Of a stretch of DNA of 15,590 nucleotides, positions 6,502 through 8,284 are shown piece after piece. The translations under genes were made by a program, and so were the position numbers. Source of the stretch: a bacterium. Lineage in GTDB: Bacteria > Thermosulfidibacterota > Thermosulfidibacteria > Thermosulfidibacterales > Thermosulfidibacteraceae. The notes beneath the pieces are model-generated. The model was not told the origin of the DNA. It saw only the letters and a program-made list of their open reading frames with translations, and did not search any database. Position 1 is the first letter of the stretch. Every line of letters begins with the position of its first letter. Where the stretch lies: assembly GCA_027022065.1 (NCBI GenBank), contig JALVZS010000155.1, positions 8,203 through 23,792 of the forward strand, in the 5' to 3' direction.

Positions 6502-6529
6502 TTGACAAGCTGTTCTATTAATGTTTAAC
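6502..6529 (+). promoter_or_regulatory. Candidate sigma-70 promoter of satP
   Basis: A perfect TTGACA at 6502-6507 is followed after 16 bp by TTTAAC (6524-6529), four of six matches to the -10 consensus. Transcription would start near 6536, giving a leader of about 107 nt before satP. The -10 element lies within the inverted repeat at 6511-6543. Confidence 0.45.
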
Positions 6530-6543
6530 TTTTAAATAGAACA
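6511..6543. promoter_or_regulatory. Inverted repeat, candidate operator over the satP promoter
   Basis: TGTTCTATT (6511-6519) and AATAGAACA (6535-6543) are perfect 9-bp inverted copies separated by 15 bp. The pair spans the promoter spacer, the -10 element and the predicted start site, which is the usual place for a repressor. Centre-to-centre distance is 24 bp, a little over two helical turns. No regulator gene is adjacent. Confidence 0.5.
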
Positions 6544-6642: not shown

Positions 6643-7221
6643 ATGGCAGAATTTAGACCCTTGGCAAATCCAGCTCCATTGGGGTTGGGAGGCTTTGCCT
6701 TAACAACCTTTGTGCTCAATGTTCATAACGCCGGTATTTTGGCCGATGTAGGAACCGCTTTGCCCTTGGGGCTATTCTACGGTGGTCTTGCACAGTTGTG
6801 TGCAGGACTGCTAGAATTTGGAACGGGTAACACCTTTGGGATGTGCGCCTTTGGATCATACGGTGCGTTTTGGATTGCTCTGGCAACATTGGTATACTTC
6901 CAAGCAAACCATGTGGGACCTGCATTCAAAGACTTTCATGGAGCGCTACTTTGGACGCTTATTGCTTGGACCATATTCACATTCATACTTACAATAGCAA
7001 CCTTCAAGAAGGCCAAAGCGCTTCAGGTAATATTTGTGTCTTTGTTGATACTCTTCATCCTACTTGATGTGCATCTTATTACTGGAAGCAAAGCCCTTGG
7101 TAGGCTAGCTGGTTGGGAAGGAATATGGACAGCATTTACCGCTTGGTACCTCATGGCTGCTGAGATAATCAACCCTGCCTTTGGTAGGGAGGTCCTTCCT
7201 ATTGGAGCACCCAAGCAGTAA
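6643..7221 (+). CDS. satP: Acetate/succinate transporter, GPR1/FUN34/YaaH family
   Basis: This inner-membrane protein is a member of the acetate uptake transporter family (SatP/YaaH), which moves acetate and succinate with protons or forms an anion channel. It is 192 residues long with six predicted hydrophobic helices, matching the family. Diagnostic features are NPAPLGL at 9-15 near the first helix and the [13 protein letters not shown] segment (about 66-78). The strong AAGGAGG site sits six bases before ATG 6643. It is preceded by the window's longest regulatory region and followed after 12 nt by a terminator-like hairpin, so it may be regulated as a single unit. In an anaerobe it could take up or release acetate; direction is not visible. 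Confidence 0.92.
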
Positions 7222-7233
7222 TGAAGATATCAT

Positions 7234-7271
7234 GGGGAGGGAGGCCCAATGAAGCTTCCCTCCCCCTTTTT
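7234..7271 (+). terminator. Terminator-like hairpin that also encloses the next gene's ribosome site and start codon
   Basis: GGGGAGGGAGGC (7234-7245) pairs with GCTTCCCTCCCC (7254-7265) through 12 base pairs with one G-U, around the 8-nt loop CCAATGAA, and is followed by C and five T (7267-7271). This has the form of a Rho-independent terminator for satP. The 5' arm contains the GGAGGGAGG ribosome site and the loop contains ATG 7249 of the next gene, so folding would both end transcription and hide that start. Confidence 0.7.
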
Positions 7272-7821
7272 AATACCAATTATTGCCTATATTCTGCTTC
7301 CTTTTTGGATTCTGATTCTTCATTTACTTTTTTCCCGTATAGTAATAGCCTATTCAGGCAGGAAGTTTCTTCTATCATTTATAAACCTGCTAGTATATCC
7401 CGCATTCTTCTCGTCACTTCTCTCCTTTGTCTACTCCTTCTTGCTACAAAAGCAGTGGTTGCTAAACTCCCTCATGGGAGGCCTTATAGGATACTATTCT
7501 TCTCTAGTTCTATCCTTAATGCCCGTTCCAGGAATACACCACTTTTTTGCAGAGCTTGACATAGAGTTCCTACTTCTAAATCTGGGATGTGCCTTAGGAG
7601 TTGTGCACCCGCTAAATCTAAAGGATATTGCAATACCTGTAACATTAACTTTCCTAGCTTCGGTGATATTCTCTTTAGCCGTAAAGCAAAGCACAAAGGG
7701 ACTGCTACTTTCCAGCACAGAAAAGCTTGATATGCTCAAGAACATGATGCTTATATATAGTCTGTGCTGTGCTGCTGTAAGTGTTCCTGTTTCTATATTC
7801 TTCGTTAAAGCCTGTTTGTAG
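7249..7821 (+). CDS. Polytopic membrane protein of unknown function
   Basis: I do not recognise this 190-residue protein. It is very hydrophobic with five or six likely membrane helices (about residues 7-28, 41-66, 73-91, 104-120, 129-146 and 166-188), few charges and a His-His pair in GIHHFFAELD (95-104). MKLPSPFL leads directly into the first helix, so ATG 7249 is the likely start; no later start keeps that helix. The ribosome site and ATG lie in the hairpin at 7234-7265. The next gene starts 13 nt after its stop. Regular membrane topology supports a real gene although homology is not evident. A link with acetate transport is only suggested by position. Confidence 0.72.
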   Translation: MKLPSPFLIPIIAYILLPFWILILHLLFSRIVIAYSGRKFLLSFINLLVYPAFFSSLLSFVYSFLLQKQWLLNSLMGGLIGYYSSLVLSLMPVPGIHHFFAELDIEFLLLNLGCALGVVHPLNLKDIAIPVTLTFLASVIFSLAVKQSTKGLLLSSTEKLDMLKNMMLIYSLCCAAVSVPVSIFFVKACL

Positions 7822-7834
7822 GGGAGAAAAGAGC

Positions 7835-8284
7835 ATGGCCTTTGAGGACATGGATATTAAAAAACTTAGAATAATAATCATAACGGCCCTCGTCCTCTTC
7901 TTCGTAGGTTGCCTCGTCCTCATAAAGATCGGAGCCGAAAAGATGGGCATAAGCGGCGGAGAACCTCCACTTTTAAAGCTTATGGAAGAAAGCAAAGTGA
8001 TACGGGGAACCAACATAAAGGCCCTTAATGAAAACCTGGGCAAAGAGGTAACCGTTAGAGATACAATTGAAGATATAAAGATACAAAACGGCACATGGGT
8101 GCTAAAGCTCCACTATCTCTCTGTTCCTCTACAGGGAAACCTGCTTAAATCCTTTAAACACAGCTATAAGCCCAGCGAGTTAAAGGGAAAAACCGTGAAA
8201 ATCACAGGGGTCATTAAAATAACCTCCGAAGCAGGCCTCTCTATAGTGCCCAAGCAAACCAAGGACATAAAAGTGCTTGACTAA
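7835..8284 (+). CDS. Membrane-anchored protein of unknown function, possible OB-fold
   Basis: From ATG 7835 (with AGGGGAG upstream) the protein has 149 residues; an in-frame ATG at 7781 would add 18 residues inside the previous gene and has no good ribosome site. One hydrophobic helix at about residues 11-31 (LRIIIITALVLFFVGCLVLI) is followed by an extracytoplasmic domain. Residues about 72-147 alternate strands and turns (GKEVTVRDTIEDIK, GTWVLKLHYLSVP, LKGKTVKITGVIKIT), which recalls a small OB-fold; this is a guess from pattern. It lies 13 nt after the unknown polytopic membrane protein and is probably co-expressed with it. No catalytic motif is visible. Confidence 0.72.
   Translation: MAFEDMDIKKLRIIIITALVLFFVGCLVLIKIGAEKMGISGGEPPLLKLMEESKVIRGTNIKALNENLGKEVTVRDTIEDIKIQNGTWVLKLHYLSVPLQGNLLKSFKHSYKPSELKGKTVKITGVIKITSEAGLSIVPKQTKDIKVLD

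Follow-up and report, generated by a model that had tools for sequence, protein, structure and literature searches.

In the stretch of DNA analysed here (15,590 nucleotides, hereafter the window), the gene for an acetate uptake transporter, satP, is followed at 7234-7271 by a hairpin of the intrinsic-terminator type. It encloses an SD sequence and an ATG at which the next gene, coding for an uncharacterised membrane protein, would start. Judged from sequence and predicted fold, both the terminator reading and the placement of the membrane gene start inside the hairpin are likely right. We hold it to be somewhat better than an even bet (about 55%) that this is the satP intrinsic terminator, lying within a conserved satP-membrane protein-gene3 block and acting as an attenuator of fixed setting, with no regulated switching. 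The element would be of an ordinary kind with an unusual overlap, the significance of which is unproven; termination, a read-through fraction and low translation at this site are what we infer from it.

satP and the hairpin at its 3' end

All features described here are on the + strand. The satP gene (6643..7221, stop codon 7219-7221) encodes a protein of 192 aa that is matched by Pfam PF01184 (2.6e-41) and, above the cut-off, by NCBIfam AceTr_1 (2.5e-52). Upstream lies a probable sigma-70-type promoter (6502..6531) comprising TTGACA, an 18-nt spacer and TAACTT, of which TTGACA and TTAATG..TAAC are kept in genomes G005, G006 and G008. The promoter-like block (window 6502-6531; L049, L050, L051) is strongly conserved, reading TCTTGACAAA.CGTTTGATTAATG.CTAAC in the g5 genomes versus TCTTGACAAGCTGTTCTATTAATGTTTAAC in the window, and could perhaps include a regulator site. 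For a small leader ORF ahead of satP no clear counterpart was found in the relatives, and a non-exhaustive look showed no promoter like that of satP for the membrane gene.

Twelve nucleotides (7222..7233) separate the satP stop from the stem; in the relatives the stems begin about 8-34 nt past the stop. The 5' arm, GGGGAGGGAGGC (7234..7245), contains the Shine-Dalgarno (SD) sequence GGAGGGAGG (7236-7244), for which the duplex with the anti-SD is predicted at -14.2 kcal/mol. The 8-nt loop, CCAATGAA (7246..7253), holds an ATG (7249-7251) that is the only canonical in-frame start, and the 3' arm, GCTTCCCTCCCC (7254..7265), acts as the anti-Shine-Dalgarno strand and doubles as membrane protein codons (residues KLPSP). 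Five T follow at 7267..7271. The original prediction of a 12-bp GC-rich stem with the SD in its 5' arm and the start codon in an 8-nt loop is thereby confirmed, as is the tract of five T; its one inaccuracy is that the T residues do not directly follow the stem, since a single C (C7266) intervenes.

All 12 pairs form in the predicted fold; nine are G-C and one, 7243·7256, is G·U. The minimum free energy of 7215-7290 is -32.2 kcal/mol (z = -4.6), which none of 200 shuffles equalled. A stem of at least 12 bp with a loop of 3-9 nt and no more than one G·U occurs only here in the 15.6 kb, where dinucleotide shuffles yield a mean of 0.025. Terminator-like sites as a class are no more numerous in the window (18) than at the shuffle level, and the satP hairpin has the highest G-C pair count among them. 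The element combines the make-up of an intrinsic terminator, a G+C-rich hairpin and then a T tract (with one C between), with that of a structure sequestering a ribosome binding site, having in its predicted fold a paired SD, an enclosed start and a stable stem.

The hairpin and the membrane gene start in related genomes

The comparison set consisted of nine genomes of a small phylum of uncultured bacteria; the source genome is itself a fragmented assembly of 1.57 Mb. A hairpin is carried by the satP 3' flank in all nine, most with a T-rich tail, and its sequence differs between genera. Across the three genomes of g5 the core of 15 pairs is intact throughout, with both sides altered in three pairs, and shifting the partners cuts the pairing to 47-62%. 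These values, from n=3 sequences, were equalled by 37 of 500 shuffles, so that the kept pairing is supportive, not strong. Presence in nine of nine genomes despite changed sequence, together with the pairing kept in g5, indicates that the hairpin belongs to the satP 3' end.

In the g4 genomes (L009, L010) the stem 3' of satP is 12 bp or longer and lacks any T tract, hinting at a role beyond intrinsic termination there; termination cannot, then, be the function everywhere. The g4 stems fit a different account, in which the chief role of the hairpin would be to shield the processed satP 3' end or to set it apart, as in selective RNA processing and stabilization, instead of ending transcription. 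Intergenic stem-loops of Clostridium are known to set operon stoichiometry in this manner (PMC8219983, PMC4423207), and they resemble the satP hairpin in being stable and in following one gene of an operon. The satP hairpin differs from them in its T tract. Protection alone would not need the T-rich tail that directly follows the stem in the window and in most relatives, and we consider this account improbable.

The order satP-membrane protein-gene3 is conserved, with identities of 71-92% for satP and 30-42% for the membrane protein. The latter (7249..7821, 190 aa) is encoded in all nine phylum genomes examined, and no homologue was found among 377 genomes outside the phylum. Neither Pfam nor NCBIfam matches it, no PDB fold does so significantly, and its invariant residues, for example F-x-E-x-D-x-E-F, stand in no recognisable family or fold. 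Downstream, gene3 (7835..8284) encodes a protein with an N-terminal hydrophobic stretch, found by tblastn at 36-46% in five relatives, and similar N-termini occur downstream in g4. Two conserved uncharacterised proteins thus stand beside satP in this phylum.

The reading frame is open across the hairpin, and before the conserved part of the membrane protein is reached it offers a single ATG, GTG or TTG codon, the ATG of the loop, which argues that the ribosome site truly lies within the stem. Residues 1-7 fall outside that conserved part. Because the orthologues align from residue 8, where the first helix of the AlphaFold model also begins (mean pLDDT 86), the seven extra residues look like a by-product of a start inside the hairpin.

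Looking for the same arrangement ahead of the orthologues, the check put forward with the original prediction, gave a mixed picture. Pairing is kept in all relatives, and two of the three g5 genomes have an in-frame start in the loop, ATG in L004 and GTG in L006, each after TGGGGAGGC (-10.7 kcal/mol); the ATG 3' of the hairpin in these two has no SD. In the third, L003, the distance from hairpin to ATG differs by 2 nt, which breaks the frame of the loop, and there is no loop start; where the 5' arm ends there is only a GTG, with a weak SD (-5.6). The arrangement is absent from g2 (the sister genus), g4 and f2. In g2 and g4 the start is 3' of the hairpin without a good SD, and L010 of g4 has a further in-frame ATG inside the 5' arm (-5.6). 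In f2 (L008, genome G003) the terminator lies 34 nt past the satP stop and the membrane gene begins more than 100 nt further with its own SD. Between the two is a 19-codon ORF, MPVETRMVKTEPFERLDEL, whose stop overlaps the membrane gene start (ATGA); the other phylum genomes differ from this.

The orthologues, which begin at the residue-8 position and whose post-hairpin ATGs also lack an SD, bear on the possibility that translation in the window does not use the enclosed start as drawn. The membrane gene might have its own transcription start point in or beside the hairpin, giving a short leader from which part of the 5' arm is missing, so that the start stays open; alternatively, an ATA or ATT past the T tract might serve as a non-canonical start. 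The sequence TATCAT (7228-7233) has five of the six bases of a -10 box, from which an RNA would begin near 7240. However, it has no good -35 partner at 16-18 nt, the promoter scan called no site there, and a similar box is missing in most relatives. As for ATA and ATT, such start codons are very rare, and the strong SD belongs to the loop ATG. Both variants together seem rather unlikely. The start of the membrane protein is nevertheless uncertain across the whole phylum.

Probable attenuation and the proposed switch

In the reading that we favor, a fixed attenuator, a very short intergenic gap would have placed the membrane gene's ribosome binding site, along with its start codon, inside the satP terminator. 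The majority of satP transcripts would terminate at T7267-7271, giving much SatP, and a fraction would read through into the membrane gene and gene3. Read-through would be expected since the stem starts just 12 nt past the stop, where a trailing ribosome can hinder its folding. In E. coli, ribosomes strongly repress terminators that lie near a stop codon, and full efficiency is attained only beyond about 27-30 nt (PMC4824070); partial or large repression of such stop-proximal terminators allows for read-through past the satP hairpin. On the read-through RNA the refolded hairpin would cover the SD and AUG, so that the membrane protein would be made at a low, constitutive level.

Operon-internal terminators that lower the expression of downstream genes are documented (PMC10450193). 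The intra-operon intrinsic terminators and attenuators of Methanococcus maripaludis (ioTTS; PMC10450193) and E. coli (PMC4824070) resemble the satP hairpin in separating two neighbours within a conserved gene block, right past the stop, and in the expectation of more upstream product. In contrast to these, the satP stem additionally contains the next gene's SD together with its start codon, and termination here is a prediction; the archaeal sites, moreover, use another termination factor. The case of vmlR in Bacillus subtilis (PMC9226507) is similar in that a terminator and an SD-hiding hairpin limit the next gene. There, however, two separate hairpins (SL-3 and SL-4) and an inducer are involved, whereas at satP a single hairpin would take on both roles, and neither an inducer nor an antiterminator was seen.

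Two observations sit less well with a fixed attenuator. With a stem of -25 kcal/mol covering the start, translation may be shut off almost completely, which is hard to square with a gene kept in nine of nine genomes, and the orthologues lack the seven extra N-terminal residues.

The original prediction had gone further, proposing that one element both ends the satP transcript and represses the next gene as an on/off switch opened by a ribosome, a protein, a small RNA or high temperature. What is supported of this is a terminator-type hairpin belonging to satP with the ribosome site within its stem; the switch itself is unsupported. Heat is not the trigger, since the predicted stem energy, -25.0 kcal/mol at 37 C, is still -12.6 at 70 C and -8.8 at 80 C, and the stem remains the best fold even at 90 C (foldings spanned 37-95 C); an RNA thermometer was rejected on these values. 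An antiterminator in the upstream satP sequence was likewise rejected: across all contexts folded (95-350 nt) the stem dominates, with pair probabilities of at least 0.74 and means of at least 0.977. No riboswitch or other known cis-regulatory RNA was matched in Rfam at the gathering score. Nor would translational coupling by ribosome melting apply, because satP translation ends at 7221, 12 nt before the stem at 7234, so the satP ribosome does not enter the hairpin and is not expected to melt it.

A regulated form, in which the hairpin is opened by a protein, by a small RNA or through a ribosome event and so permits read-through as well as synthesis of the membrane protein, would draw on the true enclosure of SD and AUG and on the SD-preceded in-frame loop starts of L004 and L006, which belong to another family. 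Set against it, besides the stability and folding results above, are the absence of the arrangement from g2, g4 and f2 and the length change of 2 nt in L003; a switch of importance to the gene would lead one to expect better conservation. We regard a regulated opening as distinctly improbable.

Frequency and origin of the overlap

The background was surveyed in about 287 kb of genome G000 and 451 kb of genome G005, which contain 13 and 33 terminator-like sites, respectively. Several of these hairpins sit 0-20 nt past a stop with a gene start soon after. Only the two satP hairpins in the surveyed sequence combine a start inside the hairpin with an SD energy of -10 or better, a rarity that speaks for the regulated form just considered. 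Because the window case was chosen for its overlap, only g5, one of the four other lineages, counts as independent evidence, and with a background rate of a few percent for each hairpin the recurrence there is suggestive, not significant. Given the family labels, and with g2 in the window's own family, two separate origins are no less likely than a single origin followed by several losses.

A selected overlap would make the single hairpin both the satP terminator and a lock on the next start, kept, or arisen twice, by selection in two families; the position of the ribosome at the satP stop would then set both read-through and access to the start, and thereby how much transporter is made relative to the membrane protein. 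We think this unlikely. If the overlap is functional, one very compact element sets the ratio of two proteins of an operon through transcription and translation at once, and it also illustrates how shrinking intergenic space can draw a start site into a terminator. If it is not, it is a clear case of purine-rich terminator arms imitating ribosome sites. The literature searched yielded no direct precedent for a terminator overlapping a start codon, which does not prove that there is none.

A general excess of SD-ATG-antiSD elements was considered and rejected. Across the nine genomes, the pattern GGGAGG-N-ATG-N-CCTCC is about as frequent as, or modestly more frequent than, its reversed-pattern control and more frequent than the AGT control, with no clear excess, and none of four examples inspected is a convincing gene start. 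In G005, one hairpin sequence, GGGAGGGAAGAAAAATGGCCTTCCCTCC, recurs near the ends of two contigs (C2:235-262 and C41:83-110; L109) and is probably a repeat at an assembly break.
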